NCBI GenBank assembly: GCA_020073215.1 | Contig: JAIQFO010000004.1 | Coordinates: 62,001 to 126,000, forward strand | From: Terriglobia bacterium | GTDB taxonomy: Bacteria; Acidobacteriota; Terriglobia; Terriglobales; Acidobacteriaceae | Direction: 5' to 3' | DNA: 64,000 nt | In this document: positions 1 to 19,584 of the stretch, piece by piece | Numbering within the stretch: position 1 is the first letter of the stretch | Layout: the number at the start of each line of letters is the position of its first letter | Translations under genes and position numbers: made by a program | Notes under the pieces: generated by a model | Databases searched by the model: none | What the model saw: the letters and a program-made list of their open reading frames with translations, nothing else | Told to the model about the DNA's origin: nothing

Positions 1-2
1 AG

Positions 3-719: not shown

Positions 720-735
720 TTAAGGAGAAATGACT

Positions 736-1050
736 ATGACCAGGAAGTTCATGACCAGAATTCTCGTCGCGCTTCTCGCACTTAGCCTGATCAGCGGAAT
801 GGCTGTGGCGCAAGCCGCTAAGACCTCGGCCAAAGCGGCTACCGCCACCGCTGCCAATGCCGATCTCCTCGACATCAACTCGGCGACCAAAGAACAGCTG
901 GATGCCCTGCCGGGGATCGGAGCCGCTTACTCCCAGAAGATCATCGACGGGCGACCCTATGCGAAGAAGACCGACCTGACCAGAAAGAAGATTATTCCCG
1001 CAGCCACCTACGCGAAGATCAAAGACAAGATCATCGCAAAACAGAAGTAA
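736..1050 (+). CDS. Secreted helix-hairpin-helix (ComEA-like) protein
   Basis: About 104 residues. An N-terminal signal peptide (basic start, then a Leu/Ala-rich core ending near A-V-A-Q-A) is followed by an Ala/Thr linker and a single helix-hairpin-helix segment: [17 protein letters not shown], then K-I-I-D-G-R-P-Y, the hallmark of the ComEA/T2SK HhH motif. ComEA-type proteins bind DNA at the cell surface during uptake, but isolated HhH proteins like this one are often of unknown role. Two in-frame ATGs exist at 730 and 736. The AAGGAG at 722-727 is 2 bases from the first and 8 from the second, so 736 is preferred. It lies just downstream of the H1-like gene. Confidence 0.8.
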
Positions 1051-1055
1051 ATTAA

Positions 1056-1143
1056 CCGCGGAGATCGCAGAGTGCCCAGAGAAGAAGAAGAAGAAGAAGA
1101 AGAAGAGTTTCAAAAACCTCCGCGAACTCGGCGTTCTCCGCGG
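1056..1143. repeat. Intergenic inverted repeat enclosing a GAA microsatellite
   Basis: CCGCGGAGA at 1056-1064 is repeated as its exact reverse complement TCTCCGCGG at 1135-1143. Between them is a run of eight GAA triplets (1081-1104). The arms resemble other long inverted repeats here at 39474-39575 and 45513-45575. It may act as a transcription end between the HhH gene and the acetyltransferase gene. Confidence 0.7.
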
Positions 1144-1183
1144 TAAACGCTTTTGGTGGCGATTCACAGAGGACCCTCCTGAA

Positions 1184-1708
1184 TTGGATGGGGCGCACGA
1201 CCACTTGAACCCTGACGATCACAGTCAAGCCGGCCGGAGCCGGATCGATTTGATTCCGGCCACACTGCCCGAACACATCGAACAAGTTCGCGCCCTCTTT
1301 CTCGAGTATGGAGAGTCTCTCGGCTTCAGCTTGTGTTTCCAGAGTTTCGACGAGGAGTTAAAGAACCTTCCGGGCGCGTACGCCCCGCCCAGCGGCAGAT
1401 TACTGCTTGCCCGATCCGCAGACCACGCCGCAGGATGCATTGCATTGCGCAAACTTGATACCGGGATCTGCGAGATGAAGAGGCTTTATGTACGGCCTGA
1501 CTATCGCGGCTTGGGTCTGGGCCGGATGCTGGTGGAACGCCTGATCGCCGAAGCGCGGGCCATTGGCTATGAGCGCATGCGTCTGGATACGATCGCATCG
1601 GCAATGAAGGATGCGATCGCGCTCTATCGCAGGATGGGATTCCAGGAAATCGCGCCGTACTCTAACATTCCCATCGAAAGCGCCCTCTGGATGGAATTAC
1701 TGTTGTAG
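1184..1708 (+). CDS. GNAT-family N-acetyltransferase
   Basis: About 174 residues with the GNAT fold order: an N-terminal helix pair, a central beta hairpin (L-L-L-A-R ... A-G-C-I-A-L-R), then motif A with Y-V-R-P-D-Y-R-G-L-G-L-G-R-M-L, the acetyl-CoA pyrophosphate loop, and a C-terminal A-L-Y-R-R-M-G-F-Q-E block typical of the family. Substrate cannot be read from sequence. No ATG is suitable: the start taken is a TTG at 1184 with a GAGGA about 9-10 bases upstream; a TTG at 1205 is an alternative. The 3' end overlaps the convergent motB gene by 12 bases. Confidence 0.8.
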   Translation: MDGAHDHLNPDDHSQAGRSRIDLIPATLPEHIEQVRALFLEYGESLGFSLCFQSFDEELKNLPGAYAPPSGRLLLARSADHAAGCIALRKLDTGICEMKRLYVRPDYRGLGLGRMLVERLIAEARAIGYERMRLDTIASAMKDAIALYRRMGFQEIAPYSNIPIESALWMELLL

Positions 1709-2626
1709 GCGACGGTCCACGGCTCTCACCACCGCGGGCTTGGGGGCGGCAGCAACGGAGGGTCGCGCCGTGTTGTCCGTGGGTCGGGCCGCGGCGGGAG
1801 GCTGCGATTGGGTTCCGGCTTGGGTTAGGGGACCCGGCGTCAGGGAATGGCCGAGAACGACGATATCCACGCGGCGGTTCATGCCGCGGCCTTCCGCGGT
1901 GGAATTGGTTGCGACCGGGTGATACTCGGCGAATCCAGCAGCGCTTAGACCATCGGGGCTGAAGCCGTCGCGGACAATGAGCAGCCGCACGATTTCGGTT
2001 GCGCGTGCGGTAGAGAGCTCCCAGTTTGAGGCGAACTGGGCGTTGTGTATGGGGGCATTATCCGTGTGGCCCTCGATGCGCAAGCGATAGTCGCGCTGCC
2101 GGAGCATGCTGGCAATGCGGTCAAAGGCGGCCTGGGAACTGGACTTCATCTGGGCGGAACCGCTCTCGAAAAATCCCACCTCGCGCAAACTGATCACCAG
2201 CCCGTCGGGCTCACGGCGCATGGCGATTTCCTTACGCTTAATTTCCGAGGCGAGCGCCGTTTCCAGCTCAGTCTGCAGATCGGCCAGATCGCCGTTTTCT
2301 ACGCCCGTGCCAAGCGCGCCCTCGGGGTGAGACATGATCCGGCCCAGGCTCGCCGTGCGCTCCGTGTTTTCGATGGCCTGCACGGTGCTGAAGGGCATGG
2401 GCTCCGCGACATCGATCGGCACTTCTGTGGTGGAAGCCTGAAAGACGCCCATCTCCTGAAAGGCCACTTGAATGGCGAGAGCCAGCTTTCCGACTTTTCT
2501 TTTGTCCACTTGCGACGAGGCGTAGAGCACCACGAAGAAGGCAAACAACAGGGTGATGAAGTCGGCATACGAAACCAACCAGCGATCGCGATTGGCGCGA
2601 CTCTTGGTCCGCTTGCGCCGGCTCAT
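1697..2626 (-). CDS. motB: Flagellar motor stator protein MotB
   Basis: About 309 residues. One N-terminal membrane segment carries W-L-V-S-Y-A-D-F-I-T-L-L-F-A-F-F, where Asp22 is the proton-binding residue of the stator. After a periplasmic linker comes an OmpA-like peptidoglycan-binding domain (I-E-G-H-T-D-N-A-P, then S-N-W-E-L-S-T-A-R-A, and N-R-R-V-D-I-V-V). The tail is Pro/Ala-rich. MotB anchors the MotA/B channel to the cell wall and couples ion flow to rotation. Its start overlaps the motA stop by four bases, indicating translational coupling. Confidence 0.95.
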   Translation of the reverse strand: MSRRKRTKSRANRDRWLVSYADFITLLFAFFVVLYASSQVDKRKVGKLALAIQVAFQEMGVFQASTTEVPIDVAEPMPFSTVQAIENTERTASLGRIMSHPEGALGTGVENGDLADLQTELETALASEIKRKEIAMRREPDGLVISLREVGFFESGSAQMKSSSQAAFDRIASMLRQRDYRLRIEGHTDNAPIHNAQFASNWELSTARATEIVRLLIVRDGFSPDGLSAAGFAEYHPVATNSTAEGRGMNRRVDIVVLGHSLTPGPLTQAGTQSQPPAAARPTDNTARPSVAAAPKPAVVRAVDRRLQQ

Positions 2627-3405
2627 ACGTTGGACGCCTCAACCGCCTCGGCAGGTTCGTGGGCTGCCGTGAGGAACCCCAGCAGCTTCTCTTCCAGCAT
2701 GTGAGGGTTCATGCCTTCGAGGATGGAAACGACCCCCTCCAGCGTCATTTCGCGGATGATCTGCTCATCGCGAATGCGAATTTTCAGTTTTCCAGCCGCT
2801 GGCAGCAAAAGGAGATTGGCGGCGCCCACTCCGTAAAGGGTGGCTACAAAAGCCACGGCAATCCCTTTTCCAACTTCGTCGATTTTGTCGAGGTGCTGCA
2901 TGACCTGGATCAACCCAAGCACGGCTCCGATGATGCCGATGGTGGGAGAAAAACCGCCGGCCGATTCGAAGAGCTGGGGAATTTTCTCTTCCTGCTCCTC
3001 CTTGTTATCCAATTCGAGCTCCATGATCTGGCGGAGCTCCTGCGAATCGGTACCGTCCACCGCCAACATCAGGGCGCGCCGCAGAAAGGGCTCGCGAATG
3101 CTGGCGAGTTCCTTGTCGAGCGAGATGATGCCGTCCCGCCGCGCCTGATTGGCGTACTTGACCAGAAGTTCGATCGTTGATTGCGCATCCTGTGCGGGCT
3201 CTACGAACACCTGCGCCAACCGCCGGAACGCACTCGTCGCCACGGGCAAGGGATACTGGATGAGGATCGCGCCCAACGTGCCCCCTATCACGATCAAGGC
3301 GGCGGTCGGCTGAAGCACCTGGCCGATATTTCCCCCCTCCAACATCAAGCCGAGGAAAATGCCGCCGATCGCCAGCACCAGGCCGCCAAGGGTTGCCTTA
3401 TCCAC
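2623..3405 (-). CDS. motA: Flagellar motor stator protein MotA
   Basis: About 260 residues with four predicted membrane helices (two N-terminal around residues 5-50, two around 145-200) and a cytoplasmic loop between. The block G-F-S-P-T-I-G-I-I-G-A-V-L-G-L-I contains the conserved proline of the MotA/PomA third helix. It begins M-D-K-A-T-L-G-G like PomA/MotA of many non-enteric bacteria. With MotB it forms the torque-generating stator, and it lies directly upstream of motB in the same transcript. The flbD gene ends nine bases upstream. Confidence 0.95.
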   Translation of the reverse strand: MDKATLGGLVLAIGGIFLGLMLEGGNIGQVLQPTAALIVIGGTLGAILIQYPLPVATSAFRRLAQVFVEPAQDAQSTIELLVKYANQARRDGIISLDKELASIREPFLRRALMLAVDGTDSQELRQIMELELDNKEEQEEKIPQLFESAGGFSPTIGIIGAVLGLIQVMQHLDKIDEVGKGIAVAFVATLYGVGAANLLLLPAAGKLKIRIRDEQIIREMTLEGVVSILEGMNPHMLEEKLLGFLTAAHEPAEAVEASNV

Positions 3406-3413
3406 GAGGATTC

Positions 3414-3698
3414 CTATTTCTCGCCAGCCGGTTGTCCATTGCCCTCGGCACCGCCATGGGCATTGCCATTAACGAGGGGCGGAAGCGCGGAGCGGTTGTC
3501 CCACCACAGCATGATCCCTTGCAACACCGAGCGGCGGAACTGCACCACCCGCTCGAGGACATCCTGGGCGCTTTCGCGAACCACAATTTTTTCGCCGTTC
3601 ACCAGGGTAATGACGGTGTCGGGGGCCTGCTCAACGAATTTGATCAGGTCGGAATTAACAGCCAAAGGGTGATTGTTGAGGCGGGTGAGTTGGATCAT
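3414..3698 (-). CDS. flbD: FlbD-family flagellar protein
   Basis: About 94 residues. The N-terminal 65 match the small FlbD family found beside motA: M-I-Q-L-T-R-L-N-N-H-P-L at the start, then I-K-F-V-E-Q-A-P-D-T-V-I-T-L-V-N-G, and V-V-R-E-S. The C-terminal tail (Gly/Asn/Ala-rich) is extra. The family is unrelated to the Caulobacter regulator of the same name; its molecular role is not settled. It is the first gene of flbD-motA-motB. Confidence 0.85.
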   Translation of the reverse strand: MIQLTRLNNHPLAVNSDLIKFVEQAPDTVITLVNGEKIVVRESAQDVLERVVQFRRSVLQGIMLWWDNRSALPPLVNGNAHGGAEGNGQPAGEK

Positions 3699-3837
3699 CG
3701 ATGGCTCCTGGACGGTCGAAGGCCCGCCACTTGTAAGGCTCCGTCAATAAGGATCGGCAAAAAGGACAAGCGTGCGCACAGAGAGCCGGAAAAGAGGCGG
3801 GTTACCTAAGATCTATGCCGAGGGGTACCAGTGGAAA

Positions 3838-3864
3838 TAAAGCCCGCCCACGCCACGCCGATGA
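3838..3864 (+). promoter_or_regulatory. Sigma-28 (FliA) promoter for the flagellin-like gene
   Basis: TAAAGCCC (3838-3845), 11 bases, then GCCGATGA (3857-3864). This fits the flagellar sigma-28 pattern TAAAGTTT-N11-GCCGATAA, with seven of eight bases matching in the -10 part. It lies 98 bases before the ATG at 3963. The rest of 3699-3962 shows no gene. Confidence 0.8.
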
Positions 3865-3962
3865 TGCTGATTGAAAGCAATTGGGTTCCGCAGGACAAAC
3901 GGAACGAGCTCCGGGAAGGTTTCGGGGACGGCCCATAATCGGAACCAATAAGGAGCAATACA

Positions 3963-4901
3963 ATGGCACTTAGCGTTCTCAACAACATCGCGTCATTGGC
4001 TGCGCAGAACCAATTGACGATCACGAACGGCAACCTGCAGAAAGCCCTGTTCCAACTGTCATCCGGGTCGCGCATCAATACCGGCGCCGATGACGCCGCC
4101 GGTCTGGCAATTGCCGACGGGTTGCAGGCCAACATTACCGCTCTCACCCAGTCCGCACGTAACGCCAACGACGGCGTTGGCGAATTGCAGGTGGCCGATG
4201 GCTCGCTGGCGCAGATCACCACCCTGCTCAATCGCGCCGTCACGCTGGCCACCGAATCTTCAACTGGTACTGTGTCCAACTCGAACAACGCGGTGGTCGG
4301 CAATCTCAACACCCAGTTCACGGTGGATCCGATTACCAACTCCGAAGGCCCGCTCGGCGCCGACAGCGCTCTGCGCTCGTTGCAGTCCAGTTTGCTCAAC
4401 GATGTCACCTATTCGACCACCGGAAACAGCGGACTGGCCAGCCTGGCATCGCTGGGCATCGACATGAACAACGACGGTACTCTGACCATCAACCAGGTCG
4501 CGACCGATGTCCACCCCTCACTGGCGAATGTGCTCGCAACCAACCCCAGCGCCGTGCAATCCTTCTTTCAAAATAGTCCTGGCACTGGTTTTGCTAACAA
4601 TTTCAACAATGACCTGGTGAACCTCACCGATTCAACCGACGGCATCGTGAATGTCGAAATTGCCGGCAACTCGACCCAAGCCCACTCCCTAAGTACCCGG
4701 ATCACCAGTCTGCAAGACCGCCTGGCCGCGCAGCAGAAGACACTGACCCTGCAATTCGAACAGGTCAATGCGAATCTCGAAGCCTACCCGTCTCTTCTGT
4801 ACGAAGTGACGGCTGAGATTGGCATCCTTAGCGGCAACTACTCCATCACTCCCCACTCCTCCACCAACACGACGCCGTCGACCGGCTCGTCCACAGGATA
4901 G
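3963..4901 (+). CDS. Chimera: flagellin N-terminus fused to FliD C-terminus
   Basis: 312 residues. Residues 1 to about 104 are the flagellin D0/D1 N-terminal domain: M-A-L-S-V-L-N-N-I, Q-L-S-S-G-S-R-I-N-T-G-A-D-D-A-A-G-L-A-I-A, and N-D-G-V-G-E-L-Q-V-A-D-G. From about residue 106 the sequence is the C-terminal half of the filament cap protein FliD: N-L-N-T-Q-F-T-V-D, E-G-P-L-G-A-D-S-A-L-R-S-L-Q-S, L-A-S-L-G-I-D-M-N-N-D-G-T-L, and a final coiled coil R-L-A-A-Q-Q-K-T-L. The flagellin C-terminal D1/D0 segment and the FliD N-terminus are both absent. No separate fliD is seen. AAGGAG at 3950-3955 precedes the ATG by seven bases, a sigma-28 promoter lies upstream and fliS follows, the usual place of fliC-fliD-fliS. 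An in-frame deletion joining fliC to fliD is the simplest explanation. An assembly collapse cannot be excluded. Confidence 0.85.
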   Translation: MALSVLNNIASLAAQNQLTITNGNLQKALFQLSSGSRINTGADDAAGLAIADGLQANITALTQSARNANDGVGELQVADGSLAQITTLLNRAVTLATESSTGTVSNSNNAVVGNLNTQFTVDPITNSEGPLGADSALRSLQSSLLNDVTYSTTGNSGLASLASLGIDMNNDGTLTINQVATDVHPSLANVLATNPSAVQSFFQNSPGTGFANNFNNDLVNLTDSTDGIVNVEIAGNSTQAHSLSTRITSLQDRLAAQQKTLTLQFEQVNANLEAYPSLLYEVTAEIGILSGNYSITPHSSTNTTPSTGSSTG

Positions 4902-4918
4902 TCAACCGGATCTTAACT

Positions 4919-5374
4919 ATGACCAGTGCGCGCACCGCCTATCGCGAAAACGACGTACGCGGCGCCTCGCCCGTGCGCCTTGTCGTCCTGCTCTACGACC
5001 AGATGATTCACGACCTAACTCAGGCCGCCGAGGCCATCGAGCAGAATGACATCCCGTTGCGGACCCGCTCCATCAACCACGCGATTCTGGTGATCGGGCA
5101 TCTGCAGTCGCCGCTGGACTTTGCCAACGGAGGCAAGGTCGCCCACGATCTCGACAATTTCTATAACGTTCTGCGCAAGAACCTGGTGCAGGTGCAATTC
5201 TTCCCTTCGAAAACAGGGATAAAGCAGCTGATCACGGACGTGCTGGCGGTGCGGGAAGCGTGGATCGAGGTTCGACGGGATGAACAACCGTCGGTTACAA
5301 CTGCGGCCCCAATGGCTCCCGCCGGCGCCGCCAGCCCCGAGTCCGAACCCGTGCGCCGGGATTGGAAGGGATAA
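4919..5374 (+). CDS. fliS: Flagellar secretion chaperone FliS
   Basis: About 151 residues. The N-terminal 115 are all-helical with FliS hallmarks: an A-Y-R-E-N start, V-R-L-V-V-L-L-Y-D-Q-M-I-H-D-L, then I-N-H-A-I-L-V-I-G-H-L and L-D-N-F-Y-N-V-L. FliS caps the C-terminal helix of flagellin in the cytoplasm before export. Residues after about 118 form an Ala/Pro-rich tail not typical of the family. It follows the chimeric flagellin gene by 17 bases. Its usual ligand, the flagellin C-terminus, is not encoded by that neighbour. Confidence 0.9.
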   Translation: MTSARTAYRENDVRGASPVRLVVLLYDQMIHDLTQAAEAIEQNDIPLRTRSINHAILVIGHLQSPLDFANGGKVAHDLDNFYNVLRKNLVQVQFFPSKTGIKQLITDVLAVREAWIEVRRDEQPSVTTAAPMAPAGAASPESEPVRRDWKG

Positions 5375-5742
5375 TGCCGCCGGACCCGCTCGAAACCTTG
5401 CGGCAGGTAAATGAATATCTGCGTTCCGCGCTGCTTCGTCTCCACCCAGAACGCAAGCATTGCTCGGGCATCCGGCCGCAGGACTTCTCCGACATACTGA
5501 CCCAGCTTCTGCGGGCGGCCGAATGCCTACGTGGCCGGGTGGCCTCGTCCGAAGCCAACGCCGGGCTCGAACGAGAGTCGCTCGAATATCGCGCCAATCT
5601 GGAAAAGCTGAAGCAATTCCTGCCCGATCTTCATGGCCGCCTGTTGGCCGAGAAGGCGCGTTTGGAAACCGCGCGAACCCACGTGGCCGCCGCCGCCGCA
5701 TGGGCACAGGCCAGCAAAAAGACTCTACAAAGCACTGAGTAA
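5374..5742 (+). CDS. Small helical flagellar-operon protein, FlgN/FliT-like position
   Basis: About 122 residues, predicted largely alpha-helical (long Leu/Glu/Arg/Ala stretches), with no motif that I recognise. The ATG at 5374 overlaps the fliS stop as TAATG and is preceded by GGAAGGG; a TTG twelve bases earlier is in frame but inside fliS. In many genomes the slot after fliS holds a FliT-like or other secretion chaperone, and the length and helical character would allow that. This is inference from position. Confidence 0.6.
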   Translation: MPPDPLETLRQVNEYLRSALLRLHPERKHCSGIRPQDFSDILTQLLRAAECLRGRVASSEANAGLERESLEYRANLEKLKQFLPDLHGRLLAEKARLETARTHVAAAAAWAQASKKTLQSTE

Positions 5743-5811
5743 TTGCGTGATTAAGCTACTGATTGAGTTCAACCTCACAACCGGGTCAATGAGCGCCATC
5801 TCCTGATTATG

Positions 5812-6411
5812 TTAACTACCGGGATGCGGCGACGGGCCGGTCGCGTTGGTGCACGCGGCCTTGAAGTCTGAGAAGCTGCCCCAGCCAAGAGTGATCGAGG
5901 CGTGTTCGATCTTCAGGCCGGAGCGGAATTTGCCGCTGGCTCGGTCGTGATCGTCCATCACGAGCTCGGGACCGCGCCATCGGCCGTAGAGATCGAAGTA
6001 ACCCTGCTGCTGGCCGACGTTGAAGACTCGGATTTCCAAGAGGCGGAACTGCATCAGGGCGCCGTTGGTGCTGCTCCAGCCGCCGTAGATCGTGCCGCTG
6101 AGCTTCAGCGCTTCGACGACACCTGGGGATGTACACAGCGAGCCGGTGCCCTGCAGGCCGCCCGTGGGACGGAGGCCGTCGAGGTGGAGCTTGGAGAAAT
6201 GAGCCGAGGGGTAGAACGCAACGTAGAGAGGATATGTTCCGGTCTTGGTGACGAGCTTACCGTATCCGGACCAGTAGAGCAGGGGCGTCCAGCGTCCACC
6301 GATGCGAAAGGCCCAGGGGTTCGTCACCCCGACCGCGCCATAGAAGACAATCACACACAGTACGAGGAGTTTGAAGAGGTCTGCGAGACATCCGTGGCGG
6401 CGAGTTGACAT
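5812..6411 (-). CDS. Membrane-anchored protein of unknown function
   Basis: About 199 residues. A hydrophobic segment at residues 12-32 (L-F-K-L-L-V-L-C-V-I-V-F-Y-G-A-V) follows a basic start, indicating a signal anchor or uncleaved signal peptide. The remaining 165 residues look like a soluble beta-rich domain rich in G, W and Y and would face the periplasm. No family is recognised. The gene is monocistronic between a plus-strand flagellar gene and another small minus-strand gene. Confidence 0.6.
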   Translation of the reverse strand: MSTRRHGCLADLFKLLVLCVIVFYGAVGVTNPWAFRIGGRWTPLLYWSGYGKLVTKTGTYPLYVAFYPSAHFSKLHLDGLRPTGGLQGTGSLCTSPGVVEALKLSGTIYGGWSSTNGALMQFRLLEIRVFNVGQQQGYFDLYGRWRGPELVMDDHDRASGKFRSGLKIEHASITLGWGSFSDFKAACTNATGPSPHPGS

Positions 6412-6467
6412 GCGCGGGAGTATATCCCGGACCGGGGGGGGTAAGCGCTATCACCTGCTAACCGCAA

Positions 6468-6848
6468 CTATCGAATATCACTGTCGGGCTTGCGGAATTG
6501 ACGCTCCAAGTCCTGCCAACTGCCAACGCCGCCGATGATCGTGAATCCGACTGAGAAAATGACCGCGAACAATATCCCCAAAGCTAGGTCGCTGCCGTTC
6601 CACTGCTTAGTCCTAGCCAGGTGCGCGGCGGAAACGCTTACGGTGCCTGCCAAACAGACCAAGAAAGTGCGCACGAAAAAGCCCGCAAGAAACTTGGTTT
6701 TGCCAACTTTGCACATCGCGTCCCACTGCTGTTTTTCGTCCTTGGCGACCACAGCATCTCCTTCATTCATGCAGACGACGAAAGTGTACCGCTCGCCCTC
6801 ATGCGGCACAAGCCAAGGCGCATCAGCGTTATGGCAAAGAACGAGCAC
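6468..6848 (-). CDS. Small two-helix membrane protein, unknown function
   Basis: Up to 126 residues with two hydrophobic helices near residues 52-74 and 88-112, and charged termini. No family is recognised. The start is unclear: the reading frame opens with a GTG at 6848, but an ATG at 6770 (M-N-E-G-D-A-V) would give about 100 residues. Neither has a convincing ribosome-binding site. Confidence 0.45.
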   Translation of the reverse strand: MLVLCHNADAPWLVPHEGERYTFVVCMNEGDAVVAKDEKQQWDAMCKVGKTKFLAGFFVRTFLVCLAGTVSVSAAHLARTKQWNGSDLALGILFAVIFSVGFTIIGGVGSWQDLERQFRKPDSDIR

Positions 6849-6883
6849 ATAACTGTCGTAACATCCCGTTTACACTCACTGAC

Positions 6884-7057
6884 ATGACCGAAAAGATGCC
6901 AGTACGAACCAAAGCTGTGCTGATCAATGTTTGTATTCTGGGCACCTTAGTTTGGTGCTACTACAGCGGGTATCCTTTAATCGCAATTGTCATCTCTGGT
7001 TTCGTCCTCCTGACGATCGCGAACGTTCTGATGTACTTTAAGCACCGAAGGCGCTAA
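6884..7057 (+). CDS. 57-residue small membrane protein
   Basis: ATG at 6884, TAA at 7055-7057. The product starts M-T-E-K-M-P-V-R-T-K, then has two closely spaced hydrophobic stretches (A-V-L-I-N-V-C-I-L-G-T-L-V-W and L-I-A-I-V-I-S-G-F-V-L-L-T-I) and ends H-R-R-R, so it probably forms a two-helix hairpin with a positive C-terminus. It lies divergently next to the 6468-6848 gene. No family is recognised, and there is no strong Shine-Dalgarno. Confidence 0.45.
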   Translation: MTEKMPVRTKAVLINVCILGTLVWCYYSGYPLIAIVISGFVLLTIANVLMYFKHRRR

Positions 7058-7121
7058 TCGCGGGAACTGTGCCATCGAGATCCGCCTTCACTCAATCCCT
7101 CATTGGTCCAATGCTCTCTCC

Positions 7122-8009
7122 CTACTTGATGTAATCGAACAGATTGTTTTGCGAGAGCTTGCTGATGACGGCCAGCGTCGCCTGGGTGTCGATCTGGGTC
7201 TGGGTGAGAGTGCTCGCGGCGATCGCGAGGTCAGCGGCCCCCAGCGTGTTCTGCTGCTGGGCGATCTGTTGCTTCGCGGCCGAAAGGTAGTTGGTCTGCG
7301 ATTGTGCCTGGTTCATGGCGTTGCCATAGAACACGCGCTGCGCCGACAGATAACTGGAGGCGGCGCCTACCGCGGTGACTGCGGTATCAATGCCACTATT
7401 CGATTGCAGGGACTGGATCAGGTTGTTGATGGCGAGAAAGACGTCGCCGCCGGCCGCGGAAAACAGTTGCGATCCCGGCTGGTTGACAGCGATCTTGTAC
7501 CCACTGCCGATCGATACGTCATTGACGCCGCCGTTGCCCACGTAGCTGACGCCCGAAGGTGAGTTGCCGTCCACCACGTACGGCGCCGTATTCGTATTGG
7601 TCCCGGCAAATACGTAGCGCCCCTCATACGAAGTGTTCGCTAGAGAGACCAGCTGGCTCTGAATGCCTTGCAGTTCCTCGGCGATGGCCGCCCGGTCGCC
7701 ATCCGAGAGTGTGCCATTGGCACCCTCGATGCCGAGAGTAGTGGCTCGCTGCAGCGCGGTTACGACCGAAGCCAGCGTAGAATCGGCAGTCGAGAGTTGG
7801 CCCTCGACCGCGGACACACTCTGCAGATATCCTGCGTTGAAAGTAGCCTGATCGTTGTTCTCGACCAGCAGCGCGGCAGCTGTCGGATTGTCGGAGGGCA
7901 CGTTCACGCTTCGCCCGGACGAAATCTCCAGCTCCGCCTGCTGCGTTTGCAGTTGCGACTGGTTGAGCGCCGCCAGCAGATCGGGCATGGTATTCGGATT
8001 GACGCGCAT
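7122..8009 (-). CDS. flgL: Flagellar hook-filament junction protein FlgL
   Basis: About 295 residues with both terminal D0/D1-like helices: M-R-V-N-P-N-T-M-P-D-L-L at the start, S-S-G-R-S-V-N-V-P-S-D-N-P-T-A-A near residue 40, and a C-terminal helix ending A-T-L-A-V-I-S-K-L-S-Q. FlgL (HAP3) joins the hook to the filament after export through the flagellar type III system. GAGG precedes the ATG. It is the last gene of flgM-flgN-flgK-flgL. Confidence 0.92.
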   Translation of the reverse strand: MRVNPNTMPDLLAALNQSQLQTQQAELEISSGRSVNVPSDNPTAAALLVENNDQATFNAGYLQSVSAVEGQLSTADSTLASVVTALQRATTLGIEGANGTLSDGDRAAIAEELQGIQSQLVSLANTSYEGRYVFAGTNTNTAPYVVDGNSPSGVSYVGNGGVNDVSIGSGYKIAVNQPGSQLFSAAGGDVFLAINNLIQSLQSNSGIDTAVTAVGAASSYLSAQRVFYGNAMNQAQSQTNYLSAAKQQIAQQQNTLGAADLAIAASTLTQTQIDTQATLAVISKLSQNNLFDYIK

Positions 8010-8030
8010 GGATGTTTACCTCGCCAGTTC

Positions 8031-9413
8031 TTACTGCAATGTCCCGCCCAGCCCAAGGTTCACCGCATCGGAAAGCAGGCTGTTGACAACGGAGACGACC
8101 CGGGCCGCGGCCTGATACGCGGTCTGGTACTGGATCAGGTTGGCCGCCTCTTCATCGAGCGAAACGCCGGAGACGCTCCCACGCTGGTCCTGCAGCTTTT
8201 GCAGAATCAGGCTGGAGGCGTCCGCATCGGCCGACGTGTTCGACGTGATGCTTCCCACTTGAAATACGATGTTGGAGTAGTAATCGATCGGCGTCTGCCC
8301 ATTGGCCACCGCCTGACTGGCAACGGCAGCAAGATTGGCGAGATTTCCGTTGCTGCCGGTAGTGCCGTCGGAACTGGCGGCAATCAGCGACGGATCAGTG
8401 ATATTCACCTTCAACGCCGCCGCCGCGCCCACCCCGCCCGCCGGCGGGGCTACGAAGAGGTCTCCTCCCTGGTTGCCATACAGGTCCGTGCCCTGGGCAT
8501 TGGCGGCGTTGAGACTGGTGGCCAGACCCGCTGCCAATTGATCGAGACTGCTTCCAATGCCGGGAATCTCCTGATCGCGAATCTGGATCATGCCGGCCAG
8601 GCTCCCACCCTTCAGCGAGCCGGTGATGTCCAGCACCCCTGCCATGATGTGCTGTACACCGTCGCCGCCCGGTTGGGTGGAGAGCGCGAAACTTTGCGAT
8701 CCCGATACCAGCGTCGTCCCATTCGAGGTCGCCAGCGTGATCCCCTCATCGGTCGGGATTACCTGCACGTCGATCAGTCCCGAAAGCTGCCGAATGAGGT
8801 TGTTCCGCGTGTCCACCAGCGTGCCCGCGCTCTGGCCCGCGTTCTCGAGGGCGCTGATCTGGTGGTCGACGCTGGCAATCTGCTGCGTCAACCGATTCAC
8901 GCCGCCGACCGCCTGCTCGACTTCCAGGTCGAGATTGCCACGCTGGGTGCGGAGATTGTTCGCGACGGCGTTAAAGTCAGTGGCCAGGTTGCCCGCCGCC
9001 GTCAGCACGCTCTGCCGCAAGGCCAAATTCGAGGGGTCGGGAGAAAGTTGCTGCAAACTGTTGAAGAAATTGCTGATGTCGGCACCTATGCCCGAACTGG
9101 CGCTCCCGAACTGAGTTTGGATCTGCTGTAGTTCGGTCAGCGAGGCGTCGAGCTTCGACTGCTGCTGCGTTTCCTGATTCAGCTGGATTTCGAGGATCGG
9201 GTTCCGCAGGCTCTCGATCTTTTCCAGTACCACCCCGGTGCCATAGCTGAGCGATCCCATAACTACCGGCTCGCCTGCCGCCAGAATGGCGCGCTGGCGC
9301 GAGTATCCGGGAGTATTTGCGTTGGCCACGTTGTTGGAGGTGGTCGCCATCGCCTGCTGGCTGGCCGCCAGCGCGCTTAAGGCAATCGAAAGAGACTCGC
9401 TCAAACCTGACAT
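8031..9413 (-). CDS. flgK: Flagellar hook-associated protein FlgK
   Basis: 460 residues from the ATG at 9413; a longer in-frame stretch upstream crosses the flgN gene and is not coding. The N-terminus (M-S-G-L-S-E-S-L-S-I-A-L-S-A-L, then S-N-N-V-A-N-A-N-T-P-G-Y-S-R-Q) is the classic flagellar rod/hook signature. The C-terminal block E-E-A-A-N-L-I-Q-Y-Q-T-A-Y-Q-A-A-A-R-V closes the axial-protein fold. FlgK (HAP1) sits between hook and FlgL. Its start is two bases after the flgN stop. Confidence 0.95.
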   Translation of the reverse strand: MSGLSESLSIALSALAASQQAMATTSNNVANANTPGYSRQRAILAAGEPVVMGSLSYGTGVVLEKIESLRNPILEIQLNQETQQQSKLDASLTELQQIQTQFGSASSGIGADISNFFNSLQQLSPDPSNLALRQSVLTAAGNLATDFNAVANNLRTQRGNLDLEVEQAVGGVNRLTQQIASVDHQISALENAGQSAGTLVDTRNNLIRQLSGLIDVQVIPTDEGITLATSNGTTLVSGSQSFALSTQPGGDGVQHIMAGVLDITGSLKGGSLAGMIQIRDQEIPGIGSSLDQLAAGLATSLNAANAQGTDLYGNQGGDLFVAPPAGGVGAAAALKVNITDPSLIAASSDGTTGSNGNLANLAAVASQAVANGQTPIDYYSNIVFQVGSITSNTSADADASSLILQKLQDQRGSVSGVSLDEEAANLIQYQTAYQAAARVVSVVNSLLSDAVNLGLGGTLQ

Positions 9414-9415
9414 AA

Positions 9416-9877
9416 CTATTCTCCAGCCCGAAGTCGGACTTCTGTCCCGAGCCAGCCGGGGTCGGGCGTGTAGGTGGGCGCGCAACTGCCCACCACGCGA
9501 CTCAACACCGCCAGGCTGCGCTCCAGGTGCCGCAGCAGCGACCAGTGCACCCGCGTGAGATAACGGATGCGGGACCCGAGCGTCTCCCACTCGGCTTCGA
9601 GCCGCGCGGTGCGCTCGGTTTGCGGGGTTTGGCTGGATGGGTCCGGCGCGGGTGACGGCAAACGCCGGCTTGCTTCGCGACGAAGCTCGTCTTCGAGACC
9701 GCTCCATTGCCGGCAAAGCTCGGCCTGGTGCGCCGCGCCGCGCGCAATCGCTTCCGCATCGTTTCGCGCCAGCGCCAGCGTGCTCGACTCCAGACTCTCC
9801 GCCAGGCTGCGCAACAGCGTCAGCCGCTGCTCGATCAGTTGGCTGAGTTTCGGTAGCGAGGTTTCGATATCGTCCAT
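9416..9877 (-). CDS. flgN: FlgN-type flagellar export chaperone
   Basis: About 153 residues, almost entirely helical with heptad-like Leu spacing (L-S-Q-L-I-E-Q-R-L-T-L-L-R-S-L-A) and a Pro-rich interruption in the middle. Sequence motifs are weak, but position directly upstream of flgK and downstream of flgM is the standard place of flgN, the chaperone for FlgK and FlgL. The ATG at 9877 was chosen over an in-frame TTG at 9898; neither has a clear Shine-Dalgarno. Confidence 0.7.
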   Translation of the reverse strand: MDDIETSLPKLSQLIEQRLTLLRSLAESLESSTLALARNDAEAIARGAAHQAELCRQWSGLEDELRREASRRLPSPAPDPSSQTPQTERTARLEAEWETLGSRIRYLTRVHWSLLRHLERSLAVLSRVVGSCAPTYTPDPGWLGTEVRLRAGE

Positions 9878-9932
9878 AGTGAGCAGTTCATTCGTCAAAT
9901 CAATGCTTGGCCGGGCTCAGCCTTCCTCGCGG

Positions 9933-10127
9933 TCATGCCAGATCGTCCACTACGTGCTTCGGAGTGTCGGGATCGGGCTCTGGTTGATTCTCTTCCACCC
10001 CTTCTTCAACCGTCTTTCGAGGCCCCAGCGGACGCTTGCGGCGGGGTGCTGCCTCGCGCGCATCGCCCCGCTTCTCCAGCACGCGCAGCAGCGCCGGATC
10101 GATCCCGTTCGTGATCAACGGATCCAT
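9933..10127 (-). CDS. Small acidic/basic flagellar-operon protein
   Basis: 64 residues between flgM and flgN. It starts M-D-P-L-I-T-N-G-I-D-P-A-L-L-R-V-L and is rich in R, K, P and E afterwards, so likely disordered. No family is recognised. Same orientation and close spacing put it in the flgM-flgL transcript. Confidence 0.45.
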   Translation of the reverse strand: MDPLITNGIDPALLRVLEKRGDAREAAPRRKRPLGPRKTVEEGVEENQPEPDPDTPKHVVDDLA

Positions 10128-10162
10128 AGGTCTCGTTGCGGCTCCCTTTTGAGCTCACTCTT

Positions 10163-10480
10163 CTAGCCACGCCTTCCGGCTGCTTCCCGAATCAGCGCCT
10201 CGGCAATCCGACTGGCAGGAAGCGAATATGCGCCCTCGCGGATCGCCTGCTGCAGCGGTTCGACCTTGGCCGCGCGAATCTCAGGCTGCGCCAGCACCTG
10301 GGCCTCCAGCGATTGCATCCGCACCTGATCGAACGAGAATCGGGTTTGATCGTGTCCCGAAATACTTCCCGAGGTGCTGCTGGCCGCGCTCGTCGAACCG
10401 GACACCCCGGTCTGTCCGGCGCGGCTCGCCTTGCCGCTGTCGGGCGGCTCCATCGCGAACGTTGTGAGATCGACTCTCAT
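10163..10480 (-). CDS. flgM: Anti-sigma-28 factor FlgM
   Basis: About 105 residues: a Ser/Gly-rich, probably unfolded N-terminal half, then the FlgM C-terminal helices (V-E-P-L-Q-Q-A-I-R-E-G-A-Y-S-L-P-A-S-R-I-A-E-A-L-I). FlgM binds and holds sigma-28 in the cytoplasm until the hook is finished and FlgM is exported. The ATG has a strong GGGAGG upstream. Two sigma-28-like promoters precede it, consistent with FlgM limiting its own synthesis. Confidence 0.85.
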   Translation of the reverse strand: MRVDLTTFAMEPPDSGKASRAGQTGVSGSTSAASSTSGSISGHDQTRFSFDQVRMQSLEAQVLAQPEIRAAKVEPLQQAIREGAYSLPASRIAEALIREAAGRRG

Positions 10481-10508
10481 AAATTCCTCCCATCCCCTCC
10501 TGCATTTT

Positions 10509-10535
10509 CTATCGGCAGATTCTTAACCAACCTTA
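10509..10535 (-). promoter_or_regulatory. Sigma-28 promoter, proximal to flgM
   Basis: On the minus strand TAAGGTTG, 11 bases, GCCGATAG. The -10 block (10509-10516) matches GCCGATAA in seven of eight positions. It ends about 29 bases before the flgM ATG. Confidence 0.7.
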
Positions 10536-10600
10536 ATGTCCGGACAGCGGCCCGGTAGGGGCGGCGCCTACTTTGCTGGATGCATAAAGCCTTAATTCCA

Positions 10601-10627
10601 ACATCGGCAAAGTCCGGGAAAACTTTA
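10601..10627 (-). promoter_or_regulatory. Sigma-28 promoter, distal to flgM
   Basis: On the minus strand TAAAGTTT, 11 bases, GCCGATGT. The -35 block is a perfect match to the consensus and the -10 block matches in six of eight bases. It lies in the flgJ-flgM gap, starting ten bases after flgJ. Confidence 0.8.
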
Positions 10628-10637
10628 GCCTCCAATG

Positions 10638-10970
10638 TCAAACTCCCGTACCACCTCCACCCGGTACCTTTGGTGGCTGCAGATGGTCGAGGACGAGCTG
10701 CGCGATGCCAATCCCGCCCCGGGCCGCGATCGACTGCGCCAGCGCCCCGCTCGCCATCAGCCGATAATCGCTTGCCCCCGGCGTCTTCGCGTCTTCCGCG
10801 CTGCCGGCAAACGTCTTCTGCAACGAGTCGAGCAGCGGAGTCAGCAGCATGGCCTCAAAGTCCCGTGCCGCCTTTTCATTCTTCAAGGCGTTCTTGGTCA
10901 AGACCGGTTTTGCGGCCGGAGGATTCGCGGCCGCCGGTGGGATGAAAGTCGAAGCGAGCGAAATGTTCAT
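10638..10970 (-). CDS. flgJ: FlgJ rod-binding protein (no muramidase domain)
   Basis: 110 residues from the ATG at 10970, which has GGGAGA upstream. It contains the rod-binding FlgJ core: A-A-R-D-F-E-A-M-L-L-T-P-L-L-D-S-L, then M-A-S-G-A-L-A-Q-S-I-A-A-R-G-G-I-G-I-A. The C-terminal glucosaminidase domain of enteric FlgJ is absent, as in many non-enteric bacteria, so another enzyme must open the wall. A longer in-frame reading upstream runs through a palindromic element and is unlikely to be translated. Confidence 0.88.
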   Translation of the reverse strand: MNISLASTFIPPAAANPPAAKPVLTKNALKNEKAARDFEAMLLTPLLDSLQKTFAGSAEDAKTPGASDYRLMASGALAQSIAARGGIGIAQLVLDHLQPPKVPGGGGTGV

Positions 10971-11003
10971 GAGACTGTCTCCCGTGGTCGTTCGCCGTGG
11001 ATT

Positions 11004-11058
11004 GTGTGGTGGCGGGCTTTGCCCCGCCGGGACGGGGCGGAGCCCAGTCACCACACGA
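11004..11058. repeat. Palindromic element between flgI and flgJ
   Basis: GTGTGGT at 11004 and ACCACAC at 11050-11056 form outer arms around GCCCCGCC / GGGACGGGGC inner arms. On the minus strand it reads as a diverged member of the GTGTGGGGACGGGC family found elsewhere in the window. Confidence 0.65.
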
Positions 11059-11077
11059 GCACGACCCACGACCAAGT

Positions 11078-12199
11078 TCAGATCACCTCCAGGTCGGCAT
11101 CGAGCGCTCCCGCCGCCTTGATGGCCTGCAAAATCGAAATCACGTCGCGCGCCGTCGCGCCCATGCTCTGCAGTCCCGAGACCAGTTGGTCGATGCTGGC
11201 GCCTTCGCCGATTTCCAGACGCCGCGCCGGGCTGTCCTTGGCCTGCACCTCGGTCTGCCCGACGACCTCGGTTTTCCCCGTCGAGAGCGGCGCGGGTTGC
11301 GACACGGAGTACTCGGTCGAAATCTGAACCGAGAATCCGCCATGCAGAATCGATACCGCTCCAAGACGCACATCTTTCCCCATGACGACGGTTCCGGTGC
11401 GTTCGTTGACCACGATCCGGGCGCGCCGATGCACGGCAACGGCCAGGTTCTCGATTCTCCCCAGGACTGCCGTCAGGTTCGCCACGCCGGTTGCCGTCGG
11501 ATCGATTTCCACCCGCCCCCCGTCACGCGCGCTCGCCACCGCGTGTCCGAATTCCCGGTTGATGGCGTCAGAAATTTCCCCCGCGGTTGAAAAATCCGGT
11601 TCGTGCAAAAGCAGCGACACCGGCGCCAGACGGTTGAAATCGAACGCCAGGCTGCGTTCCACCTTGCCTCCCGCCGGAATTCTTCCGATCGTCGGGTGGT
11701 TCATCTGTTTCGAAGCACCCGCGCCTCCCGCGGCAAAGCCCCCCACCGCGACCGGACCCTGGGCCGCGGCATAGACCTGCCCGTCCGCGCCATAGAGCGG
11801 AGTCAGCAAAAGCAGTCCGCCTTCCAGGCTCTTGGCATCGCCGATCGAAGATACGGTTACGTCGAGCGCCGCGCCCGGCCGCGCGAACGCTGGCAGGTTG
11901 GCGGTCACAAACACCGACGCCACATTGTTCACGCGCGCCGTCTTGGCCGGAATTTGCGCGCCCAGGCGCTGCATGATGTTGGCCAGAGTTTGCGTGGTGA
12001 ATACGGTCTGCTGGCTGTCCCCGGTGCGCGTCAGCCCCACCACCATGCCGTAACCGATCAGCGGATTCTCCCGCACCCCTTCCACACTGGTCAGATCGCG
12101 GATCTTGACCACGACCGGTTCGTTGGCAACTACCTCTCCTGCCGAGCGAGCTCCGGAAAGCGCGACCAGCAGGAAACCGGCGAGAAAAGCGGATCTCAT
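11078..12199 (-). CDS. flgI: Flagellar P-ring protein FlgI
   Basis: About 373 residues with an N-terminal signal peptide (F-L-L-V-A-L-S-G-A-R-S-A). Family blocks: V-K-I-R-D-L-T-S-V-E-G-V-R-E-N-P-L-I-G-Y-G, V-F-V-T-A-N-L-P-A-F-A-R-P-G, V-V-N-E-R-T-G-T-V-V-M-G, and the C-terminal D-V-I-S-I-L-Q-A-I-K-A-A-G-A-L-D-A. FlgI forms the periplasmic P ring around the rod in the peptidoglycan. Start eight bases after the flgH stop; flgJ follows. Confidence 0.97.
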   Translation of the reverse strand: MRSAFLAGFLLVALSGARSAGEVVANEPVVVKIRDLTSVEGVRENPLIGYGMVVGLTRTGDSQQTVFTTQTLANIMQRLGAQIPAKTARVNNVASVFVTANLPAFARPGAALDVTVSSIGDAKSLEGGLLLLTPLYGADGQVYAAAQGPVAVGGFAAGGAGASKQMNHPTIGRIPAGGKVERSLAFDFNRLAPVSLLLHEPDFSTAGEISDAINREFGHAVASARDGGRVEIDPTATGVANLTAVLGRIENLAVAVHRRARIVVNERTGTVVMGKDVRLGAVSILHGGFSVQISTEYSVSQPAPLSTGKTEVVGQTEVQAKDSPARRLEIGEGASIDQLVSGLQSMGATARDVISILQAIKAAGALDADLEVI

Positions 12200-12206
12200 A
12201 AGTCTC

Positions 12207-12887
12207 CTAGAAATTCAGAATTCGCAGAATGGCGCGCAGCAGCGGATGCGGCGGCCGCACCCCGTCCGAGATCACGCCTTTGCCTTTGATCTCCAGTTCC
12301 AGATCGCTGATGGTGTTGGAGGCGACCGTGTTGTCCGGCCCGATGTCGCCCCGGCGCACCACCCCGCGCAACACGATGGTCTGCTTTTCGTGGTTCATGT
12401 TGATGACGCGCTCGGCCTCGACGACCAGGTTCCCGCTCCCGAGAACCGCAACCACTCGGCCCGCCAGCGTCGTGGTCACGCTCGCGGTCGAAGACGCCTG
12501 ACCCTTGCCCGACAAGGTTTCCGCCGAGTGCAGCCCCAACAGGTTCGCCGCTCCTCCCACCTTGAGCTTGCCAGGCAGTGAATCCACCCCCGAACTGGCG
12601 CTGAAGGTGCGCGCCGTACTCACGGCGCCGGCATTCGACGAGGTCACGTCCTGCACGACGAGGATGGTGATCACATCCCCGGCCATCATGGCTTTGTAAT
12701 CGGCGCTGAGCGAAGCCATCCGCCCCCAATCCACCCAAATGCTTCCCGGGGAGAGGGCGGGCGCGGCCGGTTGCGCCATCTGGACACGAGCCAGATATTT
12801 TGCCAGGTTTGCGGCCTCGGAATCCCGCTTCGAGGCGTTCAGCCAGCCGGTCGTCAGCACGAGCAGGCAACACAGAGCCGTTTTCAT
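12207..12887 (-). CDS. flgH: Flagellar L-ring protein FlgH
   Basis: About 226 residues with an N-terminal signal segment. The family core is clear: G-S-I-W-V-D near residue 50, A-G-D-V-I-T-I-L-V-V-Q-D, G-N-L-V-V-E-A-E-R-V-I-N-M-N-H-E-K-Q, and the end R-G-D-I-G-P-D-N-T-V. FlgH forms the outer-membrane L ring. Enteric FlgH is a lipoprotein, but here no cysteine follows the signal segment (L-T-T-G-W-L-N-A-S), so the usual lipid anchor seems to be missing. Confidence 0.95.
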   Translation of the reverse strand: MKTALCCLLVLTTGWLNASKRDSEAANLAKYLARVQMAQPAAPALSPGSIWVDWGRMASLSADYKAMMAGDVITILVVQDVTSSNAGAVSTARTFSASSGVDSLPGKLKVGGAANLLGLHSAETLSGKGQASSTASVTTTLAGRVVAVLGSGNLVVEAERVINMNHEKQTIVLRGVVRRGDIGPDNTVASNTISDLELEIKGKGVISDGVRPPHPLLRAILRILNF

Positions 12888-12971
12888 GTGCGCACTCCCA
12901 ATTCACTTACCCACCAGAACTCTCATCGGTAGAGACGCGGCTTGCCGCGTGTCTCCCCACATGTCTATCGC

Positions 12972-13613
12972 CTACTGCGGCAAAGCTTCGAGACGAGCGG
13001 GACCGGAGACCCGCGCCCGGAAAATTCGCCCATCCTGCGCACGCACGCGAATGACGTCGCCTTCGCGGCCACGCTCCAGACAAGTCACACTCGCGGCCAT
13101 GCGCAATCCTTCGGCAGCAAATACAGCCAAGGCCCGGTCTCCGGCCCGCATCACGGGTTTGCGCGAGGCCGCCGCCGGATGCGGCGACAACGACCGCGGC
13201 CTGCACGAACCCGCCCGCCAGCTCGCGGCCATGGTTTTATCGTCGCGGCGAGAATCATGGAGATACACCAGGAACGGCAGACACTCGCCGGGTTCGCCGC
13301 ATTCCAGGCGGAATTGAGTCCGTTGAGGGCCTTCGTCCCAGCAGCTGGACACAACTCGCAACCGCCGTCCGGCCAGCGCCGGGAGAGCTCCCGGCAAGTC
13401 GAGGTCCTCGATCCGCGGCCACTGTGGTTCCATCATGCCCTGTTGGCGGAGTTCGGCCGCCACCGCCTGCCATACTTCCTGCCGCGTGACCGGAGTGAAT
13501 CGCGCGTCCGGCGGGATGCGAGACGGCTCGGCCGCAAGTTCGCCTGAGAGCGACGCGGCCGCGAGGATTCCGCAGACCAACAGAAAGCGGCCGGAAATCA
13601 ATCGGGCTATCAC
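12972..13613 (-). CDS. flgA: FlgA, P-ring assembly chaperone
   Basis: About 213 residues from a GTG at 13613, with GAGGGA upstream; the reading frame continues upstream into flgG without plausible starts. It has a signal peptide (F-L-L-V-C-G-I-L-A-A-A), a diverged N-terminal domain and a C-terminal SAF/ChapFlgA domain with V-M-R-A-G-D-R-A-L-A-V and G-D-V-I-R-V-R-A-Q-D-G-R-I-F-R-A-R-V. FlgA works in the periplasm to assist FlgI polymerisation. It is placed between flgG and flgH, as in many non-enteric operons. Confidence 0.85.
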   Translation of the reverse strand: MIARLISGRFLLVCGILAAASLSGELAAEPSRIPPDARFTPVTRQEVWQAVAAELRQQGMMEPQWPRIEDLDLPGALPALAGRRLRVVSSCWDEGPQRTQFRLECGEPGECLPFLVYLHDSRRDDKTMAASWRAGSCRPRSLSPHPAAASRKPVMRAGDRALAVFAAEGLRMAASVTCLERGREGDVIRVRAQDGRIFRARVSGPARLEALPQ

Positions 13614-13623
13614 TCCATTCCCT

Positions 13624-14415
13624 CTACTTGCCCAGCTGGTTGACCAGTTGAAACATCTGATCAGCGGCTTGCACCACGCGCGAACTGGCTTCATAAGAAC
13701 GCTGCGCCACGATCATGTTGATGAACTCATCGACCACGCTGACGTTCGACTGCTCCAGATACCCTTGCTCGATCTGACCCAAACCGTCGGTGCCCCCCGG
13801 CGTGCCGATGGCGGGATCGCCCGAAGCGGTGGTCGCGAGAAATAGATTCTTGCCCACACTGTTCAATCCGCCCGGATTCGGAAACTGCGCCAGTTGCAGG
13901 CTGCCCACCTGCTGCGCCGCCGTTTGCCCGGCCAGCGTGACCGATACAGTGCCGTCCGGCGCAATCGTGATCGAGGTCGCGCCCGCTGGGATGGTGATCG
14001 CGGGCTGCAGCGGGTTCCCATCGGAAGTGACCACGTTGCCTTGCGCATCCTGGTGGAAAGCGCCGCTGCGCGTGTAGGCGGTCTCGCCCGTCGGCAACAG
14101 CACCTGGAAAAATCCCTGGCCCTCGATGGCCATATCGAGCGGGCTGCCGGTCGCGCCCAGGTCGCCCTGCAACTGAATGATCTCCGATGCCGACGCGCGT
14201 GTGCCGAGGCCTACTTGCAGGCCCGTCGCTATGGTGGTCTGCTGCGAGGCGGCCGCGCCCGGCATCACCGTGCTCTGGTAGATCAGGTCCTGGAACTGCA
14301 TGCGGCGGCTGCGGAATCCGGCCGTACTCGAGTTCGACAGGTTATTGGCAATGGTATCGAGATTGGTTTGCTGCGCCTGCATGCCGCTGGCTGCGGTGTA
14401 GAGTGCTCGGAACAT
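13624..14415 (-). CDS. flgG: Flagellar distal rod protein FlgG
   Basis: 263 residues, normal for the family. N-terminal rod signature: M-F-R-A-L-Y-T-A-A-S-G-M, N-L-D-T-I-A-N-N-L-S-N; middle G-S-P-L-D-M-A-I-E-G-Q-G-F-F; C-terminal block L-E-Q-S-N-V-S-V-V-D-E-F-I-N-M-I-V-A-Q-R-S-Y-E. FlgG forms the distal rod through the P and L rings. It lies nine bases after flgF and overlaps flgA signals. Confidence 0.97.
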   Translation of the reverse strand: MFRALYTAASGMQAQQTNLDTIANNLSNSSTAGFRSRRMQFQDLIYQSTVMPGAAASQQTTIATGLQVGLGTRASASEIIQLQGDLGATGSPLDMAIEGQGFFQVLLPTGETAYTRSGAFHQDAQGNVVTSDGNPLQPAITIPAGATSITIAPDGTVSVTLAGQTAAQQVGSLQLAQFPNPGGLNSVGKNLFLATTASGDPAIGTPGGTDGLGQIEQGYLEQSNVSVVDEFINMIVAQRSYEASSRVVQAADQMFQLVNQLGK

Positions 14416-14424
14416 CGCTTCCTC

Positions 14425-15192
14425 CTAAACCTTTGCCAGATCGACGCTGGCAATACGGTTGAATTCGCTGTCAAACATCGACATCGCACGCTGCAGCATT
14501 TCGGCCTGCCGCTCGACTCCGATCAGCGTCACCACCGAAGCAATGGAATTCACGTTCGAAGATTCCAGCGCGCCCTGCTTGAGCGCCGGCTGCGGCACCG
14601 GTTTTGCGCTGCCTGCGGGGGCATCGAGCAAACTTCCGCCCTCGGAGATGAGCTCCGTCCCGGGAGCGAATTCCACCACCCGGATGCGCCCCGCCACCGC
14701 GCCGTTCACCGAAAGCGTTCCATCCGCAGCGATCGAAACGGCTCCCACTGGAACGTTGATTAGAGCTTTCGGTCCGAGCGCAGGGTCGCCGAGCACAGGA
14801 TCGCCCGCCGCCGTCACCAGAATCCCGCTGCTGGACACCTGAAAGCTTCCGCTGCGCGTGTAGCGCGTGCCGCGCGCCGTCTGGATCGCGAAGAACCCGC
14901 CGCCTTCGATCCCCACGTCCAGCGGGTTCCCCGTCTCCACCAGATTGCCCGCTGTCATATCCAGGCGCGTCCCTTCGAGCACCCCGAAATTGTTGGTCGC
15001 CCGGTTCAGTACATTTATATTGCTGAGCACATTCGGCACCGTCGGACGCGGCACCGCCAGCAGCGACTGGAACGTCGTCTGCAGACCCCGAAACCCGGTG
15101 GTGTTCAGGTTGGCAAGATTGTGAGCCGAAACTTCCAGCGCCTGGCTCTCAGCCCGTAACCCCGCGCACGCTGCATAGAATCCGCTGTCCAC
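14425..15192 (-). CDS. flgF: Flagellar proximal rod protein FlgF
   Basis: 255 residues, starting at a GTG (15192) with AAGGAG six bases upstream. It has the rod signature A-H-N-L-A-N-L-N-T-T-G-F-R, G-N-P-L-D-V-G-I-E-G-G-G-F-F, and the C-terminal L-E-S-S-N-V-N-S-I-A-S-V-V-T-L-I. Order flgF-flgG identifies it as FlgF. It is the first gene of the flgF-G-A-H-I-J block, behind a sigma-54-like promoter. Confidence 0.92.
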   Translation of the reverse strand: MDSGFYAACAGLRAESQALEVSAHNLANLNTTGFRGLQTTFQSLLAVPRPTVPNVLSNINVLNRATNNFGVLEGTRLDMTAGNLVETGNPLDVGIEGGGFFAIQTARGTRYTRSGSFQVSSSGILVTAAGDPVLGDPALGPKALINVPVGAVSIAADGTLSVNGAVAGRIRVVEFAPGTELISEGGSLLDAPAGSAKPVPQPALKQGALESSNVNSIASVVTLIGVERQAEMLQRAMSMFDSEFNRIASVDLAKV

Positions 15193-15217
15193 ATCGGCTC
15201 CTTGTCGTTAGACAGGA

Positions 15218-15233
15218 AGCAAGCCAATCGCCA
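15218..15233 (-). promoter_or_regulatory. Sigma-54-like promoter for flgF operon
   Basis: The minus strand reads TGGCGAT, four bases, TTGCT, matching the -24/-12 pattern TGGCACG-N4-TTGCW with invariant GG and GC correctly spaced. It is about 26 bases from the flgF GTG. The remaining gap to cheX (15234-15450) shows a short CCGGG...CCCGG inverted repeat and no gene. Confidence 0.65.
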
Positions 15234-17092: not shown

Positions 17093-17125
17093 CTCGTGTG
17101 GGGACTGGTTTGTGTTGGGACCAGC

Positions 17126-17178: not shown

Positions 17179-17227
17179 CCAGCAGCTACAGCAACTCGTG
17201 TAGGTCCCGCCATGGCCCGGCCTACGC

Positions 17228-19576: not shown

Positions 19577-19584
19577 CAAACTTT

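Follow-up and report, generated by a model that had tools for sequence, protein, structure and literature searches.

The fused open reading frame and its neighbours

The window analysed here, a stretch of 64,000 nucleotides from a Terriglobia bacterium of the family Acidobacteriaceae, contains an open reading frame (ORF) that begins as flagellin and ends as the filament cap protein. In this chimera, residues 1 to about 105 of FliC are joined in frame with the last 204 residues of FliD, and residues 106-108 can be assigned to neither parent. The features of the locus are collected in Table 1.

Table 1. Features at the fusion locus (positions in the 64,000-nucleotide window).
Feature	Position	Strand	Description or basis
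motB, motA, flbD, intact	1697..3698	-	Pfam matches; collinearity with relatives for motA and flbD
Sigma-28-type promoter motif TAAA-N15-GCCGATG of the former fliC	3838..3863	+	Pattern match to the sigma-28 consensus
Fusion ORF	3963-4901	+	312 residues encoded
5' part of fliC, codons 1-105	3963..4277	+	Flagellin_N match and identity to relatives
Deletion junction	4275..4290	+	blastn collinearity break and base-level alignments
In-frame 3' part of fliD, with 204 C-terminal codons and the stop	4287..4901	+	FliD_C match
fliS, intact	4919..5374	+	Pfam FliS, E 1.8e-26
flgL, intact	7122..8009	-	Pfam; besides the fusion, the sole Flagellin_N protein in the genome
flgK, flgN, flgM, flgJ-like, flgI, flgH, flgA, flgG, flgF, all open	8031..15192	-	
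flgJ-like ORF	10638-11075	-	Without a Pfam match; named from position and collinearity
flgA	12975-13694	-	ChapFlgA, 28.2 bits

The two halves of the ORF are recognized by separate Pfam models. Flagellin_N (PF00669) matches residues 6-109 with an E value of 1.5e-22 (80.6 bits against a cut-off of 26.6) and spans positions 2-105 of a 139-position profile, while FliD_C (PF07195) matches residues 109-269 with an E value of 7.8e-22 (78.3 bits against a cut-off of 25.4) and spans positions 64-228 of 236. Up to an E value of 1, Pfam returned no match in the fusion for Flagellin_C (PF00700) or FliD_N (PF02465); in the FliD proteins of the relatives G001 and G008, FliD_N and FliD_C are both present. 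These matches bear out a preliminary description of the locus, which had joined a flagellin N-terminus to a FliD C-terminus near residue 105 and had considered the opposite terminus of each protein to be missing. Codons 1-105 encode what we take to be the N-terminal helices of domains D0 and D1. Over 104 codons, the FliC part shares 90-96% amino acid identity with the FliC N-termini of seven of eight genomes of the same genus and 80% with that of the eighth (G021). The FliD part is 67-76% identical to the FliD C-termini of seven of the eight genomes and 58% identical to that of G021.

The consensus sequence recognized by sigma-28 is TAAA-N15-GCCGATAA, and a match to it, TAAAGCCCGCCCACGCCACGCCGATG, begins 125 nt upstream of the fusion ATG. 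Ten loci from relatives were given for comparison, and the pattern lies at -124 to -132 upstream of fliC in eight of the nine that have a fliC hit; L041 has the hit without the motif and L089 lacks the hit.

Each of the 15 flagellar ORFs that were read in the window has an open frame, for a total of 3,648 codons. In the block beyond flgL, Pfam matches support flgK, flgN, flgM, flgI, flgH, flgG and flgF, with flgG and flgF distinguished by order alone. Two further stretches lie in the region from fliS to flgL. A 126-aa ORF without a Pfam match comes right after fliS (5362-5742), and in the loci L035 and L040 fliS is likewise followed by ORFs that resemble it at the C-terminal end. From the end of the fliS region to flgL, about 1.3 kb (5777-7109) is not matched by any sequence between these genes in G008, G020 and G001; this stretch contains two minus-strand ORFs (5812-6411 and 6468-6848) with no Pfam family above cut-off.

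Intact loci in relatives and the junction

Where they have named records, the relatives used for comparison are acidobacterial genomes, nearly all of them metagenome assemblies (Acidobacteriaceae, Terriglobia, Candidatus Sulfotelmatobacter, Acidobacteria). Within the genus, the gene order is motA-flbD-fliC-fliD-fliS-flgL, and the window is collinear with it apart from one gap. Where the locus of a relative is long, it has fliC and fliD adjacent to each other, flanked by flbD and fliS; same-genus fliC frames are about 640-675 aa long from the matched start, and most fliD frames are about 475-485 aa. Against five such loci (L035, L036, L037, L038 and L040), the window is missing 2.84-2.97 kb, from fliC codon 105 to where the matching C-terminal segment of fliD begins. 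By blastn, collinearity with L035-L038 stops at 4277-4292 and restarts at 4285-4287, and with L040 it restarts at 4356. In L035, from genome G020, window positions 2400-4292 align and the alignment is then taken up from 4287 onward, leaving positions 2121-5009 of that locus without a counterpart; the other four loci follow the same pattern. Base-level alignments place the end of the fliC match just past codon 105, approximately, and the start of the fliD match at a NAVV motif. When the fliC-side and fliD-side break sequences of relatives are compared by eye, only a few bases are alike. The strain's own parental sequence is gone, so the break is located approximately, at about 4275-4290. Both sides of the join are syntenic with relatives, in which the parental genes are intact and collinear.

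A similar picture could arise if an assembler, faced with a mixture of strains, had skipped the variable middle of fliC-fliD, in which case the genes would be normal and separate. The genome is indeed a draft (5.6 Mb in 111 contigs, 97.98% complete) with an estimated contamination of 5.65%, and flagellin middles are known to differ between strains. Yet there is no N anywhere in the window and the contig passes continuously through the join. With only a few bases alike at the break sites of relatives, there is no long repeat to explain a collapse, bearing in mind that the strain's own parental sites are gone. The preliminary description had recommended looking for another fliC and fliD in the genome, and by Pfam models (PF00669, PF00700, PF07195) there is none: PF00669 matches the fusion and FlgL only, FlgL is the only match to Flagellin_C, and PF07195 matches the fusion only. 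Finally, the core flagellar cluster is independently missing from another contig on which its flanks are joined, as described below. On this evidence, an assembly artefact is unlikely.

Flagellar machinery in the rest of the genome

No match to FlhA (FHIPEP), FliP or FliG (FliG_C) was found in the genome assembly with Pfam models, and no sigma factor reaches the cut-off for FliA. As a guide to these models, PF00669, PF00700, FHIPEP, FliP and FliG_C match the same four of 14 control genomes (E. coli, B. subtilis, Caulobacter and Thermotoga), and FliD_C matches three of those four. The best match to FliA_WhiG scores 116 bits against a cut-off of 189.6, while FliA of the relative G003 scores 243.7; the FliA_WhiG model also matches other sigma factors, with hits in ten of the 14 controls and three above the cut-off.

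In G003, the core cluster lies on contig C45 at about 17-42 kb and includes genes for a rod protein, FliF, FliG, a FliI-type ATPase, FlgE, FliP, FliR, FlhA, FliA, FliM and FliN, with the domains of nine core-cluster proteins examined. Positions 18408-42443 of this contig, about 24 kb, are missing from contig C30 of the window genome (G000), where both flanks of the cluster are present about 320 bp apart. Because both flanks are present on C30, the absence of the core cluster is a deletion and not an assembly gap. Comparison with C45 showed that, within the part of the window contig it covered, the core cluster is not near the fusion locus. The loss of FliF, FliI, FlhB and FliR would follow from the deleted stretch. 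In their identity to relatives, C30 (88-90% to G004 and 84% to G008) and the window locus (82-88% to G004 in pieces of at least 480 bp, 75-97% over all pieces, and 78-85% to G008) are about equally close to the same genomes, which argues against C30 being a contaminant. Judged by these sequences, C30 and the window contig look like parts of one genome.

The missing machinery bears on whether the fusion could be a working chimeric axial protein, in which the N-terminal helices of FliC and the C-terminal D1/D0 segment of FliD would serve as a minimal cap, a junction or a filament subunit. Such a protein would fit an in-frame join at the start of the FliD C-terminal segment, the retention of the promoter motif and of fliS, and the lack of relaxed selection (see below). 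On the other side, no second genome with the fusion was found among 61 genomes (own included). By domain, nine loci with matches across or near the join comprise six flagellins with Flagellin_N and Flagellin_C, two FliD proteins with FliD_N and FliD_C, and one locus (L033) with Flagellin_N and no FliD domain in 303 residues of a 620-residue open frame. The matches listed at E values of 1e-30 or less across 397 genomes of the order (again counting the window genome) include no conspicuous candidate, as judged without a domain check. A functional chimera of this kind is thus extremely unlikely.

The preliminary description had offered two readings, a deletion scar and a novel adaptor-like axial protein. 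The first is strongly supported by the collinear gap and the loss of the core cluster. The second was rejected: FlhA, FliP and FliG were not matched, no sigma factor exceeds the FliA cut-off and the core cluster is deleted, and with no export apparatus found the ORF does not encode a new axial adaptor.

Flagellar loss elsewhere in the genus

FHIPEP is matched in 13 of 24 genomes of the genus and FliG_C in nine of the 24 (own included in both counts), with the FHIPEP matches in G004 and G018 covering about half of the profile. Because several of the genomes without a match are incomplete, absence in these proves little. Collinearity offers a closer view. In the close relative G004, the locus (L091, G004:C51:18000-34000), set against window positions 1-20000, keeps flbD and traces of the rest, and has no counterparts of window positions 808-3391, 3877-10581 and 10818-15412. 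Separate deletions, different from the one in the window, have taken out motAB, fliC-fliD-fliS-flgL-flgK and the majority of the flg genes there, and only pieces of the core cluster are left, with end points unlike those on C30.

Most of the core cluster is also absent at the same place in G006, G015 and G017. The end points in G015 (L119) and G017 (L115) are nearly identical, at about 21770 to 39510 on contig C45 of G003, and this shared absence may reflect one old event, a hot spot or a different ancestral layout; in G015, flhA and fliG are located elsewhere. G006 has no flhA or fliG match and yet retains long open frames for fliC (693 aa) and fliD (529 aa), a pattern that makes it plausible that the window genome lost its core cluster first and its filament genes later. 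Two FlhA and two FliG matches were found in each of two other genomes of the genus, on contigs C29 and C81 of G001 and on C190 and C198 of G012, and these sequence matches suggest two flagellar systems in each.

Selection and age of the deletion

Changes private to the window genome were counted among G000, G008, G020 and G003. The FliC part (104 codons) has 0 non-synonymous to 15 synonymous private changes and the FliD part (203 codons) has 13 to 24, with triplet dN/dS estimates of 0.03-0.04 and 0.13-0.17, respectively. Summed over eight gene segments, of which those of MotB and FlbD cover just 133 and 76 codons, about 64 non-synonymous and 182 synonymous changes are private to the window genome; the ratios of the other three genomes are higher, at 26 to 37, 44 to 83 and 81 to 175. 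Decay in the form of stops or raised dN/dS was not detected, as the 15 ORFs are open and branch dN/dS is low in the eight segments. Since many synonymous distances reach 0.5 or higher and the triplet method gives only rough values for single branches (on the G008 branch, one synonymous and one non-synonymous estimate are negative), the weight rests on the private-change counts and the open frames.

The absence of nonsense changes in the 3,648 codons limits neutral change after the loss to about 0.01 substitutions per site (95%), a bound that presumes neutrality since then and is lower if frameshifts are counted. For comparison, the synonymous distance on the window branch since the split from G008 is about 0.36-0.66. 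Open frames without relaxed selection imply either that the deletion is recent or that the genes are still under selection. Recency is preferred because the export apparatus is gone and because G004 shows a further stage of decay. If the remaining flagellar ORFs are now neutral, the deletion would be recent, and most of the changes in the two halves of the fusion would predate it.

Continued selection could take the form of a non-flagellar role for which the retained genes (motAB, the flg genes and the fusion) have been kept. All of these are open, and constraint along the branch is evident in the eight gene segments for which it was tested. G004, however, has already lost most of them through deletion, and constraint that acted before a recent loss accounts for the same pattern, making such a role very unlikely. 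It is more doubtful still that the fusion and the intact motAB and flg genes form a still-selected remnant, in which the chimera would have gained a new role outside motility after export was lost.

Interpretation and comparison with known systems

The fusion is very probably a scar, left when a lineage without flagella underwent a recent deletion. A deletion of about 2.9 kb would have taken away fliC beyond about codon 105, the spacer between the two genes and the 5' portion of fliD, and the two stubs would have been joined in frame by chance. It would have fallen in a lineage that was shedding its flagellar system through large deletions, plausibly after the core cluster of about 24 kb, which in G003 holds the M-ring, motor-switch, export, hook and fliA genes, had been lost. 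Against a scar stand the open, in-frame fusion, an outcome with a probability of about 1 in 3, and the finding that neither half decays on the window branch; a functional remnant would look identical. With the core cluster missing, FlhA and FliP included, there is no flagellar export route, and no recognizable sigma-28 is present to read the promoter. Most likely, then, the fusion ORF is inert and does nothing.

A chance in-frame fusion is of little weight alone, and what modest value it has lies in the snapshot it gives of flagellar loss in this group of soil acidobacteria. Across several species, the export and basal-body cluster has been excised with differing end points, and filament, hook-junction and motor genes located elsewhere can persist for some time. 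The locus also advises caution, in that fused ORFs in metagenome assemblies should not be taken as new proteins until the rest of the machine has been checked. Among the publications listed in literature searches, none deals with the fusion or with flagellar loss in the genus, judged by titles and the opening lines of abstracts.

Relative to its two parents, the ORF shares with flagellin (FliC) residues 1 to about 105, the promoter motif and the position in the operon, but is without the middle domains and the C-terminal D0/D1 helices. With the filament cap FliD (HAP2) it shares the last 204 residues followed by fliS, but it is without the N-terminal D0/D1 and without D2/D3, as these domains are usually named. 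The closest likeness is to the kind of fusion that deletions make in decaying operons: the locus is collinear but for one internal deletion, and the genome is losing the whole system. It differs from them in that the frame has been kept, and so resembles a designed chimera.
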